DNA of 64,000 nucleotides, taken from the NCBI RefSeq assembly GCF_001553405.1, contig NZ_KQ960952.1, positions 153,965 to 217,964 of the forward strand, read 5' to 3'. Below, one piece after another: positions 5,202 through 28,533 of this stretch (the first letter of the stretch is position 1; each line of letters starts with the position of its first letter). The position numbers and the translations under genes were made by a program. The notes below the pieces were generated by a model that did not search any database, was not told where the DNA came from, and saw only the letters and a list, made by a program, of their open reading frames with translations. This stretch comes from Megasphaera hutchinsoni (lineage in GTDB: Bacteria; Bacillota; Negativicutes; Veillonellales; Megasphaeraceae).

Positions 5202-7090
5202 ATGCGATGATTGCTGTATTAGATGAAGCTACAAGAAATAAAATTGCCGCAGGAGAAGTGGTAGAACGGCCTTCTTCTTGTGTTAAAGAATTAGTAGAAA
5301 ATGCTATTGATGCAGGGGCAACTATGATTGAAGTAGAAATCGCAAATGGTGGTCAAACTTATATTCGTGTTACAGATGATGGGTGTGGTATGAGTCAAGA
5401 AGATGCCCACATGTGTATGATTCGACATGCGACCAGCAAGATTCGCTCGGTTGAAGATATTTTTTCTATTACATCTTTGGGGTTTCGAGGTGAGGCTATT
5501 CCGAGTATTGCTTCTGTATCTCGTTTTCAAATTACGACGCGTAGAAAAGAGGATGATTTTGCCACTCATTTAATAGTTAATGCAGGGAAGGTAGAAACGG
5601 AAGAACAAGTTGGTTCGTCTATTGGAACAACGATGGAAGTGAACGATTTGTTCTTTAATACACCAGCACGGAAAAAATTTTTAAAAAGCGAGCGAACAGA
5701 GGCGTCAAAAATTAGTGAAATGTTGACAAAGTTGGCATTGGCTCATTCGGATATTGGTTTTTCTTTTATTAATAATGGTAGAACTACGCTACAAACGGGT
5801 GGAACTGGTGAGTTAAAAGAAACAATTGCGGCTATTTATGGGGTAGATGTAGCAAAGGAAATTTTTCCAGTACAATATGAAGATGAGTATGTAATGGTGA
5901 CGGGATTTGTTGGTAGACCGTCTATTTTAAAAAGTTCACGAAATTGGCAAACATGTGTGGTGAATCAACGTACTGTTCACAATCCGATGATGTTCAAAGC
6001 AGTTGATAATGCATATCATGCTATGTTACCCAAAGTAGGATATCCTTTTGCTATGATTCATTTACAGATGGATCCAGCTACGATAGATGTCAATGTTCAT
6101 CCAGCTAAAACTGAAATTAAATTTTCTGATGAAAAAGCTATTTATCATGCTATTTATCATGCCATTGTGCAAGCGTTGGTAGCACAAGAGGCCCCAGAAC
6201 AGGTGGCGCGTCCGATCCAAGCAAATTCACAGCAGATGCAACATATTGAAGAAGCATCAGCTCAATATGCACATGTGCAACAATCATTTTTTTGTGGAGA
6301 AGATAGTTTAGTTGAAAGAAGCAAGGTAGAGTCACAGCGTCAACCGCTTATATTGTCTAATATGCCATTAGAAAAATCAGCACAACCGATCAGACATACG
6401 AATGACTATGTGCCGTTACCATCTTCATCTATTCCAGTTGATGAACGCGCATTTTCACAGCAGTTAGCCCAAAAAGAAGGCGTAGAAGCGGTGAGTGCGG
6501 ATAGTATTCGTTTTGCCGATACGGAAGAGATCTTTCCCCTGGGATCGGTAGCTGAATGTTATGTTTTAGCAAAAAAAGGAAATGACTTATATATTATTGA
6601 TCAACATGCAGCTCATGAACGAGTACGATATGATCGTTTTTGCAAGCGTGTTGAAGGATTGCCGAGTCAGCAATTATTGATGCCTTTGTTTGTTGAATTT
6701 GATACAAATGATATGACAATTTTATTAGAACAAGAAGCGGTATTTCAGGATTTAGGCTATACGTATTCACAAGCTGGACCTGAAACTATTCGTGTAGAAG
6801 AAATTCCTTGTGATTTGTCGATGAGTATGATTCAAGAATCATTGCAAACTATATGTCATGATTTACAAGAAAATAAGCATCTTGATAAGGCAACTATTCG
6901 GCATCGGGCATTAGCGTATTTATCGTGTCGGGGAGCGATTAAAGCGGGGGATCATATTACGATGCGTGAGATGAAACAGTTATTAGATGATTTATTTAAA
7001 ACAGAAAAGCCTTTTGTTTGCCCCCATGGTAGACCTGTAATTATTCGTTTTACGGCAGAAGAATTGGCGAAATTATTTAAGCGAACATGA
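5198..7090 (+). CDS. mutL: DNA mismatch repair protein MutL
   Basis: GHKL ATPase that links MutS to strand incision, 630 aa. The N-terminal domain shows ENAIDAGA, DDGCGM and GFRGEAIPSI. The C-terminal domain carries DQHAAHERVRYDRF (about 467), the metal-binding endonuclease motif DQHA-x2-E-x4-E with the last position Asp instead of Glu, and CPHGRP near the end. This suggests a nicking MutL, as expected for a bacterium without MutH. Translation starts at the GTG overlapping the mutS stop or the ATG nine bases later. The linker (about 340-440) is variable and Gln/Ser-rich. Confidence 0.97.
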   Translation: MNAMIAVLDEATRNKIAAGEVVERPSSCVKELVENAIDAGATMIEVEIANGGQTYIRVTDDGCGMSQEDAHMCMIRHATSKIRSVEDIFSITSLGFRGEAIPSIASVSRFQITTRRKEDDFATHLIVNAGKVETEEQVGSSIGTTMEVNDLFFNTPARKKFLKSERTEASKISEMLTKLALAHSDIGFSFINNGRTTLQTGGTGELKETIAAIYGVDVAKEIFPVQYEDEYVMVTGFVGRPSILKSSRNWQTCVVNQRTVHNPMMFKAVDNAYHAMLPKVGYPFAMIHLQMDPATIDVNVHPAKTEIKFSDEKAIYHAIYHAIVQALVAQEAPEQVARPIQANSQQMQHIEEASAQYAHVQQSFFCGEDSLVERSKVESQRQPLILSNMPLEKSAQPIRHTNDYVPLPSSSIPVDERAFSQQLAQKEGVEAVSADSIRFADTEEIFPLGSVAECYVLAKKGNDLYIIDQHAAHERVRYDRFCKRVEGLPSQQLLMPLFVEFDTNDMTILLEQEAVFQDLGYTYSQAGPETIRVEEIPCDLSMSMIQESLQTICHDLQENKHLDKATIRHRALAYLSCRGAIKAGDHITMREMKQLLDDLFKTEKPFVCPHGRPVIIRFTAEELAKLFKRT

Positions 7091-24997: not shown

Positions 24998-25027
24998 TTG
25001 CAATTAGTTAAATTTGTGTGCTACAAT
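24998..25027 (+). promoter_or_regulatory. Promoter of the GTPase-permease operon
   Basis: TTGCAA at 24998-25003, an 18-base spacer and TACAAT at 25022-25027, 36 bases before the first gene. I looked for a palindromic Zur/Fur-type operator here and saw no convincing one. Confidence 0.55.
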
Positions 25028-25063: not shown

Positions 25064-25993
25064 ATGAATATACCTATATATATTATTTCAGGTTTTTTAG
25101 GTGCGGGTAAGACAACTTGTATTCAACATCTTATAGCACAATTAGATAAAAAAGAACGGGTTATGATTGTAGAAAATGATTTTGGCGAAGTTAGTTTTGA
25201 TGCAACTGTTTTAAAAAAACAAGGGGTGCATGTACGGGAATTAACTTCGGGTTGTATTTGTTGCAGTTTGTCTGGCGATTTTAAAACGTCTTTGAAAGAA
25301 GTATTGGCAACACAAGATGTAGATATTATTTTTATTGAACCATCCGGGGTGGGAAAAGCCTCAGAAATACGTATGGCTTGTCAAAGTAAAGAATTATCTG
25401 ATCTTGTAACCGTTAAAGGCTGTATTACCATCATAGATATACAGACATGTGCATTATATGCACGTAATTTTGGGGAATTTTATGAAGATCAATTGCATTC
25501 AGGCGATATCATTATTTGTAGTCATGTTGAACAAAATAGAGAAGCGTTAGGAGAAGCATTGGCGGTAATAAAAAAATATAATTCATCAGCATATATTTAT
25601 CAAGAACCATGGGATGAGATTCCATGGCAAACGGTATTACATTTAGGGCAAGCGGCAAGTGTCGAGGTGCCCATTACCTTGGAAACGGCACCTTGTCATG
25701 AGTGTGACCATATACATGACGAACATATATCATTTTCATCGTATACATGGCATGCGAGACAAGCTAGAACGGCAGAGGAATGGCGTCTATATATAGAAGG
25801 GCACATGCAACAAATGCCGGAAGTATGTGTACGGATGAAAGGTATATTGCCAACACCTGATGGACATATTGAAATTCAATATAATGGTACTAATATAGTG
25901 ATAAAACCAATTGATATAAAAGAAAATTTCTTGACATGTATCGGTAAGAAACTATCGGAAAAACAATGGAAAGAAGTGTGGCAAGAGGGATGA
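25064..25993 (+). CDS. COG0523 (CobW/P47K) G3E-family GTPase, putative metallochaperone
   Basis: A 309-residue G3E GTPase. Walker A GFLGAGKT is at about 9-16, the metal-binding CxCC motif at GCICCSL (about 64-70), the E-x-SG motif in FIEPSGVGK (about 89-97). A His/Cys-rich stretch CHECDHIHDEH (about 212-222) is a likely metal site, before the C-terminal CobW domain. COG0523 proteins act in Zn, Co or nitrile hydratase metal handling; which metal applies here is not visible. The ATG at 25064 follows GGTGA; the longer ORF runs back into the tRNA-Pro gene and is wrong. Confidence 0.92.
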   Translation: MNIPIYIISGFLGAGKTTCIQHLIAQLDKKERVMIVENDFGEVSFDATVLKKQGVHVRELTSGCICCSLSGDFKTSLKEVLATQDVDIIFIEPSGVGKASEIRMACQSKELSDLVTVKGCITIIDIQTCALYARNFGEFYEDQLHSGDIIICSHVEQNREALGEALAVIKKYNSSAYIYQEPWDEIPWQTVLHLGQAASVEVPITLETAPCHECDHIHDEHISFSSYTWHARQARTAEEWRLYIEGHMQQMPEVCVRMKGILPTPDGHIEIQYNGTNIVIKPIDIKENFLTCIGKKLSEKQWKEVWQEG

Positions 25994-27567
25994 GTCGGAT
26001 CATAGAACCTATTCCAGTATATGTGGTTACAGGTTTTTTAAGTACGGGTAAAACATGTGTGATAAATCATATTCTGTCTTTTCGTTCGTCCCGTATAGGA
26101 CGGGTTGCCATGGAAGATGGTAGGACTAAAGCAAATACACCTATATGTATGTTACCGATGTTAACTACTACTAATATAGAAGAGGTAGCACAATCGCTGC
26201 TTATAGCGGTACAAGGAAAAGACGTTCAAGAAGTATGGTTAGAGTACAATGGGATGCTTTCTTTTACACTTTTAGAACGATTGTTTTGCGACCCTTGTTT
26301 AGTGAATATATTTCAGATTAAGCGAGTATATTTTGTGACAACGACAAATTATTGTTTGCATTTATTAGGAAAAACCGGAAGTGCTGTTGAATCTCAATTA
26401 GCAAATGCCGATTGTATTTTATGGTGGGATAAATTAGAGGAGACGCAAGTCACATCTAAAACCGATGATGAAACAGTGATAAGTCGGCTGCAACAGTTAT
26501 GTCCACATACACCGTGTATACGTGTTTCTTCATTAGTGGATCGGCGTAGTATTAACAAAATATTGAAAGATCATCAGCATATCACGGGTAGAACAATAGC
26601 ACTAGGAGTAGGGATGGCTGTCTGCTATATAGGGATTTCCGTGTCATCAATACCATTATTAGAAAATGTAAAATATGCGATGGCGTTATGGATGGCAACG
26701 GTAATTCAAGCACTATCATTTTTGCTGTTAGGTATTATTTGTTCGTCCTTTTTGCAAACGTGGATTCCTACTTCTTTTTTTACAAAACGGTTACAAGGAA
26801 ATCTGGTTACTTCTATGGGCTGGGCTTTAGTTGGGGGTTTTTTATTTCCTGTATGTGATTGTGCGGCAATCCCTGTGTTCCGTAGCCTATTAGTGCGAGG
26901 CGTGCCATTACCGGCAGCATTATTATTTATGCTTGCTAGCCCTATTATTAATCCTATTGTCATTCTTTCAACATGGTATGCGTTTTTTGGGATGCCTCAA
27001 GTTGTCATAGCACGTCTTATTTTAGGAGTTATTATTGCTGTTTTGGTTAGTTTATCATTCTTGCACTATCGTGGATTAGATTCGATTGTAGGAAGGGGAC
27101 AAGGATTACTTTCTTTGGAAGATAGATTGGAATCACTAGAAAAAAGCAATAAGGTATTTTATTTTTTAGAAAATGCAAGAAAAGATTTTTTTCGCATGGC
27201 TCCATTTATTATCATTGCCTCTTTGGTTGTATCATTTTTTCAAGTATATATTGGTAATTTCTTGAAATATTATTCTTTAACGGGAAATTTAGCAATGACC
27301 ATTGAATTGATGATCGCTTTAGCTTTTGTTCTATCTATTTGTTCTACGGCTGATGCGATGATTGCTCGCAATATGAGTTCGAATATTCCTTTGCCTGGTA
27401 TATTAGCATTTTTGGTCTTTGGTCCGATGATGGATGTTAAAAATTTTTTTGTTCTAACGTCGCTTTTTCCTAAAGCATTTGTATATCGACTTCTTATTTC
27501 CTTACTATTGGCTTGTTTCGTTTTTGCCTTTGCCTTTGCGGTGATTACAGGAAGTGTGGTGTTATGA
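25990..27567 (+). CDS. Fusion of a degenerate G3E-GTPase-like domain to a DUF318 permease
   Basis: A 525-residue two-domain protein. Residues 1 to about 205 resemble COG0523 GTPases: VYVVTGFLSTGKTCVINHIL (about 9-28) is a P-loop, but the CxCC motif is missing, E-x-SG has become LEYNGM and the NKxD position reads WWDKLE. From about 205 to 525 there are multiple membrane segments of the YraQ/YcgR (PF03773) permease family, with PVCDCAAIPVFRSLLVRG and FMLASPIINPIV. It overlaps the upstream true GTPase by four bases (ATGA); an in-frame ATG at 25966 is an alternative start. Probably a metal or metal-complex permease with a regulatory or docking head; inference. Confidence 0.88.
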   Translation: MSRIIEPIPVYVVTGFLSTGKTCVINHILSFRSSRIGRVAMEDGRTKANTPICMLPMLTTTNIEEVAQSLLIAVQGKDVQEVWLEYNGMLSFTLLERLFCDPCLVNIFQIKRVYFVTTTNYCLHLLGKTGSAVESQLANADCILWWDKLEETQVTSKTDDETVISRLQQLCPHTPCIRVSSLVDRRSINKILKDHQHITGRTIALGVGMAVCYIGISVSSIPLLENVKYAMALWMATVIQALSFLLLGIICSSFLQTWIPTSFFTKRLQGNLVTSMGWALVGGFLFPVCDCAAIPVFRSLLVRGVPLPAALLFMLASPIINPIVILSTWYAFFGMPQVVIARLILGVIIAVLVSLSFLHYRGLDSIVGRGQGLLSLEDRLESLEKSNKVFYFLENARKDFFRMAPFIIIASLVVSFFQVYIGNFLKYYSLTGNLAMTIELMIALAFVLSICSTADAMIARNMSSNIPLPGILAFLVFGPMMDVKNFFVLTSLFPKAFVYRLLISLLLACFVFAFAFAVITGSVVL

Positions 27568-28310
27568 TGAAACGTTGGAATTTACAATTAGTGATAGAGG
27601 GTATGTTATTTATCCTTTTAGCGGTTGTATTAAGCATATTTGTCATCCAAGGAACGTATAAGATGTTTATTACACCACGTATTTTGCCACTTGTATGTAT
27701 ATCTATTATTGTTTTTTTTGTTTGGGGGATAATGACTCTATGGCGTAGAAAAGAGGTTTCTTATAAGAAATCTTATCAAGCTTGTTTGTGGATTTGGATA
27801 CCGCTTGTCTTAATTACGGGACCTTTACTATTAGGAGAAGAACCGTATACAAAACAAATTATTGGAACTATGCAAGATGCACCGCAAGCATCAACGCATC
27901 CCTTTGGTATTGATTTTGATGGACAAACACATATGACGATTGATAATCATAATCGTATGATTATTATGAATACAAAACATTTTTATGATGCTGATTTAGA
28001 ACTGACTAAAAATTTAGAAATGTACCAAGGATACACTGTATATGCAGTCGGTTTTGTATCTTATGATGATGAAATGTTAACAGGAAATGATTTTACTATT
28101 GCACGTTATTTAATGTTTTGCTGTATTAATGATGTTACTCCTTTTGGTATTACTTGTCATTATGAAGGACCTAAACACTGGCAAGAGTATCAGTGGGTTG
28201 CTATAAAAGGAACGGTTACAAAACGGGCTTGGCATGGATTGATGCAACCAGTTATTCATATTGATGAAATTACACCAGCTAAAAAAGTAGAAGGATTTAT
28301 TTATCCGTAA
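27564..28310 (+). CDS. DUF1980 / TIGR03943-family membrane protein (YcgQ-like)
   Basis: A 248-residue partner protein of DUF318 permeases, comparable to Bacillus YcgQ beside YcgR. Two to three hydrophobic helices lie in the first 100 residues (FILLAVVLSIFVIQG, PLVCISIIVFFVWGIM, IWIPLVLITGPLLLG), then a soluble domain that is probably extracytoplasmic. VGFVSYDDEMLTGNDFTIAR and RYLMFCCINDVTPFGI are typical of the family. It overlaps the permease gene by four bases, which supports a two-component transporter. The substrate is unknown. Confidence 0.88.
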   Translation: MMKRWNLQLVIEGMLFILLAVVLSIFVIQGTYKMFITPRILPLVCISIIVFFVWGIMTLWRRKEVSYKKSYQACLWIWIPLVLITGPLLLGEEPYTKQIIGTMQDAPQASTHPFGIDFDGQTHMTIDNHNRMIIMNTKHFYDADLELTKNLEMYQGYTVYAVGFVSYDDEMLTGNDFTIARYLMFCCINDVTPFGITCHYEGPKHWQEYQWVAIKGTVTKRAWHGLMQPVIHIDEITPAKKVEGFIYP

Positions 28311-28335
28311 GCATACAGTGAAAGGAGCGAGAGTT

Positions 28336-28533
28336 ATGCATTTAGGAGCACAAGAATTAATTATTATTTTGATAATTGTTTTAATTTTATTTGGAGGCAA
28401 AAAAGTGAGTGGCCTAGGAAAAGCGTTGGGGATGAGTTTGCGAGAATTTAAAGAAGAAGTAAATAAAAAAGATGACAATGCGGGAGAAATGAAAGAGAAA
28501 GATGGGGTATCGACAGAGGAAAACAAAGATTGA
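28336..28533 (+). CDS. tatA: Sec-independent protein translocase subunit TatA/E
   Basis: A 65-residue TatA-type protein: short N-terminus, one membrane helix (LIIILIIVLILF, about 8-19), the hinge FGGKKVSGLGKALG (about 19-32), an amphipathic helix and an acidic/lysine-rich tail. GGAG lies upstream of the ATG at 28336. It sits 25 bases after the DUF1980 gene, in the same apparent operon. No tatC is in the window, so whether the Tat pathway is complete cannot be judged. Confidence 0.92.
   Translation: MHLGAQELIIILIIVLILFGGKKVSGLGKALGMSLREFKEEVNKKDDNAGEMKEKDGVSTEENKD

Follow-up and report, generated by a model that had tools for sequence, protein, structure and literature searches.

A GTPase-permease cassette of Megasphaera hutchinsoni and many other anaerobic bacteria that looks like an undescribed zinc-handling machine

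Pairs of a DUF318 permease and a DUF1980 protein are found as ScfAB in group A streptococcus and as YcgR/YcgQ in Bacillus subtilis, and no substrate is known for them (PMC5584981). The targets of the COG0523 metallochaperones are similarly poorly known; in the 2009 survey of the family the NKxD motif is given as intact, and the word "fusion" is absent (PMC2770081). Both questions meet in a gene cassette of Megasphaera hutchinsoni, located at positions 25064-28533 of a 64,000-nucleotide stretch of contig NZ_KQ960952.1 (positions 153,965 to 217,964; in the following, "the window" means this whole stretch). Four plus-strand genes lie here, downstream of three transfer RNA genes on the opposite strand: a COG0523-type GTPase (subunit A), a fusion of a second G3E-like domain (the head, or subunit B) to a DUF318 permease, a DUF1980 protein and TatA. 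The cassette looks like an undescribed zinc-handling machine. Tentatively, and with slightly less than an even chance of being right, we read it as an asymmetric pair of G3E subunits passing zinc on to the C-terminal domain of the DUF1980 protein (DUF1980_C) and, where present, to the permease. The gene fusions described below connect a single subfamily of COG0523-type GTPases with both DUF1980_C and the permease and reveal a second conserved subunit, annotated just as "GTP-binding protein"; they point to zinc limitation as the condition of interest.

The literature searched, which did not include the 2021 COG0523 review, contained nothing that joins COG0523 with DUF1980 and the permease or with COG0701, and nothing on TIGR03943; publications on COG3689 or DUF1980 (a genome report and a lipoprotein survey, respectively) do not describe the cassette. 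A first-pass annotation, made by a model from the letters of the window, had supposed that the arrangement may be undescribed. The architecture may already be listed in domain databases.

Two unequal G3E-like domains

The fusion protein is encoded by a single open frame, in which Pfam cobW covers residues 17-152 and ArsP_1 residues 238-524 (residue numbers of the fusion follow its 533-residue reading). The cobW match of the head lies above the gathering score (6.4e-5; 23.0 bits against 20.7), and a profile comparison with solved structures retrieves YjiA of Escherichia coli (8.5e-11). An AlphaFold2 model of the fusion, built from 82 sequences, has a mean predicted local distance difference test score (pLDDT) of 89.7 and a predicted template modelling score of 0.83. 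Foldseek ranks YjiA entries first (E 1e-4 to 4.7e-4), then HypB, FtsY and UreG; the presence of the permease in the query keeps the template modelling scores of these matches low. Judged by profile and predicted fold, the head is a G3E-like domain, as the first-pass annotation had held for residues 1-205.

A genome scan with the single window protein as query gave no matches; with an alignment as query, the scan of named genomes yielded 338 relatives, of which the best 80 were analysed, practically all with the fusion. Once duplicates of identical sequence were discarded, the set comprised 93 fusions and 83 upstream GTPases. The 93 distinct homologues and the single frame establish the fusion as one real gene and rule out two genes read as one or an assembly error.

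What the head lacks is the metal site. None of the 93 distinct fusions has CxCC, and in a hidden Markov model alignment to YjiA all of E37, C66 and C67, the residues changed in the zinc-site mutant E37A/C66A/C67A (structure 4ixn), are missing, with E39 and G41 kept. The head is therefore G3E-like, yet is not filed as a COG0523 metallochaperone. Several nucleotide-binding motifs are kept: the window protein has the Walker A sequence GFLSTGKT, E-x-G and E-Y-N-G, and over the 93 fusions G23, G28, K29, E50, G52, E93 and N95 are invariant, with G96 in 92. The first-pass annotation was right about the lost CxCC and the kept Walker A; what it took for a degraded E-x-S-G is instead a conserved motif of its own, E-[W/Y]-N-G (residue 94 being W or Y, the N present in 93/93), in place of the E-x-[S/T]-G of true GTPases. 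By this conservation, the Walker A, the switch element and the Walker B glutamate are maintained in the head.

A decaying pseudogene domain was considered and is ruled out by these invariant motifs, despite one truncated copy (L187). In that genome (L187:4029-6401 and L188:3997-5953), fur, the GTPase gene and the head follow each other at one locus, and the fusion ends after the head (217 residues, with EWNS rather than EWNG). An unfused permease-DUF1980 pair is encoded elsewhere in this genome, and the short head gene is probably a truncated fusion.

Subunit A matches Pfam cobW, the CobW/HypB/UreG nucleotide-binding domain, with 136.2 bits (cut-off 20.7). It carries the Walker A sequence GFLGAGKTT, ENDFG, the CxCC motif CICC (residues 64-67, positions 25253-25264), EPSG, a His/Cys-rich stretch at about 25694-25726 and a weakly CobW_C-like C-terminus (17.6 bits, below the cut-off). 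Its description in the first-pass annotation as an intact GTPase stands for the metal site, where the CxCC cysteines are kept in all 83 distinct upstream GTPases, and falls for the G4 motif: the window protein reads SHVE, and NKxD occurs at the aligned position in none of the 83, most having S-[H/R]. NKxD recognises the guanine base (PMC9164220); it is absent here, and GTP should therefore not be assumed as the nucleotide. Subunit A is thus classed as a COG0523-type GTPase of a divergent subfamily, outside the canonical members. By contrast, NKxD is kept in an additional, canonical COG0523 gene that lies directly downstream of the cassette at three loci (L091:8732-9853, L112:8411-9445, L116:8400-9500).

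Distribution and independence of the head

The first-pass annotation had thought the arrangement possibly lineage-specific. A class-wide search placed full-length fusions in three families within one order. In the scan of named genomes, the carriers among Negativicutes were Megasphaera, Veillonella, Anaeroglobus and Colibacter. Many Clostridia also carry the fusion (Lacrimispora, Hungatella, Tissierella, Desulfosporosinus and others), as do, by their record titles, Synergistaceae and Anaerolineaceae; it is thus spread over several classes and, on the same basis, at least three phyla, and is not lineage-specific. The gene order GTPase-fusion-DUF1980 is found in all 20 Negativicutes loci examined and in most of the 80 named loci. 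TatA, which had been counted as part of the unit, matches beside none of the 20 Negativicutes cassettes and is ruled out as a partner. DUF318-DUF1980 pairs are also seen unfused in Negativicutes.

Some loci depart from this order. In two Lacrimispora loci (L073:2787-8315, L074:2791-8402), the fusion and DUF1980 genes have no adjacent GTPase gene and lie next to genes for a FeoB-like protein and a DtxR/MntR-like regulator, as called by eye from the sequences. In two others (L102:3532-8429, L108:3526-8426), again without an adjacent GTPase, the fusion directly follows an ABC-3 permease gene, with an overlap at 6010, and a zinc-type binding protein gene precedes; in a Faecalicatena strain with a locus of this type, another site carries the complete cassette (L065).

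A search of the phylum that used only the head profile brought up other arrangements. At eight loci (L165, L166, L167, L169, L170, L171, L174, L177), the head forms a soluble protein of about 315 residues together with a DUF1980_C domain, both domains scoring above the Pfam cut-offs in the four proteins scanned. These heads have E-[YLF]-N-G and no CxCC, and in 7/8 loci an A-type GTPase gene adjoins. In these neighbouring GTPases, the aligned G4 reads S/T-[R/H]-T, and an [N/T]KxD pattern matches elsewhere in the protein. In Vescimonas fastidiosa, the GTPase and the head-DUF1980_C protein are annotated merely as two GTP-binding proteins. Six of the genomes (G540, G607, G563, G517, G616, G684) contain DUF1980_C once each and gave no ArsP_1 match. 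At a further locus (L172), permease, DUF1980, GTPase and head are encoded in this order by four separate neighbouring genes, and the head has a single predicted membrane helix at its end. Fused to DUF1980_C in some genomes and separate in another, the head is, by gene arrangement, a module in its own right that accompanies the active GTPase and DUF1980_C, the permease being optional.

In a tree of the G domains (a quick search, unrooted and with several long branches), one branch, with a Shimodaira-Hasegawa-like approximate likelihood ratio of 98, divides all heads, whatever their fusion partner, from the whole set of CxCC GTPases. An origin of the head by recent duplication of the neighbouring GTPase is unsupported, the heads lying on their own side of the tree. 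Distances among heads correlate with those among GTPases even after the permease is taken into account (partial r 0.42; reached in 0/500 permutations); such co-divergence is consistent with an interaction and is no proof of it. Together with the near-universal adjacency, it suggests that the head and the GTPase encoded upstream are likely to be functionally linked. The first-pass annotation had the head dock the active GTPase onto the permease: the link to the GTPase is retained, and the restriction to the permease is too narrow, as the head also occurs on the DUF1980 OB-fold and several genomes lack an ArsP_1 permease.

These data also bear on a docking role like that of the first-pass annotation: the head would be a passive tether or regulatory pseudo-enzyme with the sole task of bringing the COG0523 GTPase to the permease. 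The missing metal site and G4 of the head and the dedicated GTPase adjoining it in most loci would suit such a role. Over 93 divergent heads, however, Walker A, E-x-G and the Walker B glutamate are invariant, a conservation for which a passive tether has no need, and heads also sit on DUF1980_C in genomes without any ArsP_1 permease; we consider the role unlikely.

Permease, DUF1980 partner and zinc neighbourhood

The permease part belongs to PF03773 (ArsP_1; 5.2e-51, 174 bits, curated cut-off 32.3). With the NCBIfam model of the SO_0444 Cu/Zn efflux transporters (NF033936) it scores 50.7 bits, below the cut-off of 300. Among the 93 distinct fusions, C-D-C (297-299), C459 and D463 are invariant in the permease. 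A CxCG motif, by consensus in a permease loop, was observed in 48/82 fusions, apparently clostridial ones, and not in the window protein (loop after residue 365); it is a possible extra metal site.

The DUF1980 protein exceeds the curated cut-off of TIGR03943 (113 bits against 88.8). In its model (pLDDT 90.5), the hydrophobic stretches form three long helices, and the C-terminus is a beta domain (about 27942-28307), which Foldseek matches to OB-folds (4e-4). A CCxxD motif is kept in 63/63 aligned members and recurs as CC-x-x-D in the head-DUF1980_C fusions; as a zinc site it is plausible.

Genes that point to zinc flank the cassette in 46/80 named loci, often in the same direction and just upstream, as assigned by Pfam on the neighbours: an ABC-3 permease in 42, a ZnuA-like binding protein in 39 and a Fur-family regulator in 36. 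A sample binding protein has the zinc proteins YcdH and AdcA as best matches; a sample regulator was about as close to Fur as to the zinc regulator FurB. In Bacillus anthracis, Zur binds upstream of an ArsP_1 permease gene (PMC6336718). Given the neighbouring zinc-import genes and this Zur-bound gene, zinc is well supported as the metal of the family in Clostridia, and the metal theme of the first-pass annotation gains substance; in the window genome, zinc would be the metal by extension.

Against this background, two further roles were weighed. The substrate of the permease might not be the metal at all (a chelate of a metal, or a compound of the envelope, could be moved instead), with the GTPase pair only sensing or metallating the permease. 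This would be compatible with the fitness phenotypes of ScfAB, for which a substrate is lacking (PMC5584981), and with the ArsP_1 relatives named in NCBIfam, which are efflux transporters; about half of the loci are linked to zinc-import genes, however, and thiol and acidic residues of the membrane part are invariant, so that we hold this role to be distinctly improbable. Alternatively, the GTPase-head pair could act as a motor that powers the permease, as in ArsA/ArsB or FeoB, zinc being pumped and not simply handed over. A G3E-permease fusion that keeps its nucleotide motifs, the invariant CDC, C459 and D463 and the neighbouring zinc ABC importer genes would fit. Head and DUF1980_C do occur without a permease, however, and some DUF318-DUF1980 pairs have no head, which means that the permease can function unaided by such a motor; we judge this role improbable. 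Transport may run in either direction, the named relatives being exporters and the neighbourhood one of zinc import.

The features of the window are compiled in the table. ATGA overlaps couple GTPase and fusion genes (25990-25993) and fusion and DUF1980 genes (27564-27567); because of this coupling, a start of the fusion at 25990 (525 residues) seems likelier than one at 25966 (533 residues). Promoter-like consensus matches number 25 across the region, with 18.8 expected by chance.

Table. Features of the cassette region in the window
Feature	Positions	Strand	Basis and remarks
Promoter-like site TTGCAA-18-TACAAT, TG before -10	24998..25027	+	Upstream of GTPase; consensus match only
COG0523-type GTPase, 309 residues	25064..25993	+	Pfam cobW 1.2e-39
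Fusion head, metal-less G3E domain	25990..26580	+	Pfam cobW, fold model, profile; frame opens at 25966
Fusion permease part: first helix and ArsP_1/DUF318 domain	26581..27567	+	Pfam, model
DUF1980/TIGR03943 partner	27564..28310	+	TIGR03943 1.3e-32, above cut-off
TatA	28318..28533	+	1.9e-16; adjoins cassette, outside conserved unit

A tentative mechanism and its closest relatives

The asymmetric zinc-handing pair could operate in the following manner. Subunit A would carry the metal via CxCC and E37 and bind nucleotide. Subunit B, without the zinc ligands of the E37/C66/C67 site, keeps the phosphate-binding loop, the switch element and a modified Walker B, and may form a nucleotide-dependent heterodimer with A in place of the HypB-type homodimer. 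The A/B complex would then hand zinc between A and the CCxxD of the DUF1980 OB-fold, the head, as the metal-less and presumably nucleotide-binding member, being anchored to the metal recipient. Depending on the genome, this recipient may be the permease complex or just DUF1980_C. In the window form, B is tethered to the DUF318 permease, where CDC, C459 and D463 could conduct the metal; handover and membrane passage may be coupled via this tether.

Several observations weigh against this mechanism. The upstream GTPase was not seen in the DNA examined at 10/83 fusion loci, several of them away from a contig edge, and the co-divergence of head and GTPase may stem from shared inheritance. No zinc genes lie beside the window cassette, the only ABC-3 gene of the genome being on another contig; a B. 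subtilis-type Zur box scored no better than shuffles, in the window or across cassettes, in a search that did not cover clostridial or Negativicutes box types. By charge bias (positive-inside), the DUF1980_C domain of the window protein, which has three predicted membrane helices, is probably outside the membrane, whereas the head-DUF1980_C fusions have none and would be cytosolic; a single transfer route does not explain both. Both subunits lack NKxD, so that the nucleotide may be other than GTP.

A bolder reading is that the cassette represents a new class of nucleoside triphosphate-coupled metal transporter with two unequal G3E subunits, one metal-carrying and one built into the permease, whose nucleotide-switched heterodimer loads or drives zinc through the DUF318 permease and its OB-fold partner. 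This is doubtful; if true, the loss of NKxD in both subunits would mean independence from GTP specificity. The zinc-handing pair, if correct, would itself be one of few examples in which a subunit of metallochaperone type forms a physical part of a transporter.

Among described systems, the COG0523 zinc GTPases (E. coli YjiA and YeiR, B. subtilis YciC) share Walker A, ENDFG, CxCC, ExSG and the weakly CobW_C-like C-terminus with subunit A, and YjiA, the best fold and profile match, has the same G fold as the head. The cassette differs in that its partner subfamily is without NKxD and its head, without E37 and CxCC, is fused to a permease or to DUF1980_C. Permease and partner have the families and order of YcgR/YcgQ (ScfA/ScfB, BAS1632, SMU.746/747), pairs that have been reported without a G3E head. 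ArsA, a SIMIBI-class NTPase with two unequal halves, acts on the permease ArsB, for which we know of no homology to the cassette permease; in the cassette, the permease is joined to one of the unequal halves, with a metallochaperone as the other, and the analogy is functional only. The same applies to FeoB, in which a G domain is likewise fused to a metal permease: its G protein and permease classes are unrelated to those of the cassette, whose fused domain is partnered by a separately encoded, metal-binding GTPase. The nucleotide specificity of FeoB is debated (PMC9164220). HypB and UreG are G3E GTPases; HypB dimerises with nucleotide (PMC9164220) as a homodimer of complete subunits, whereas the cassette would form a heteromer.

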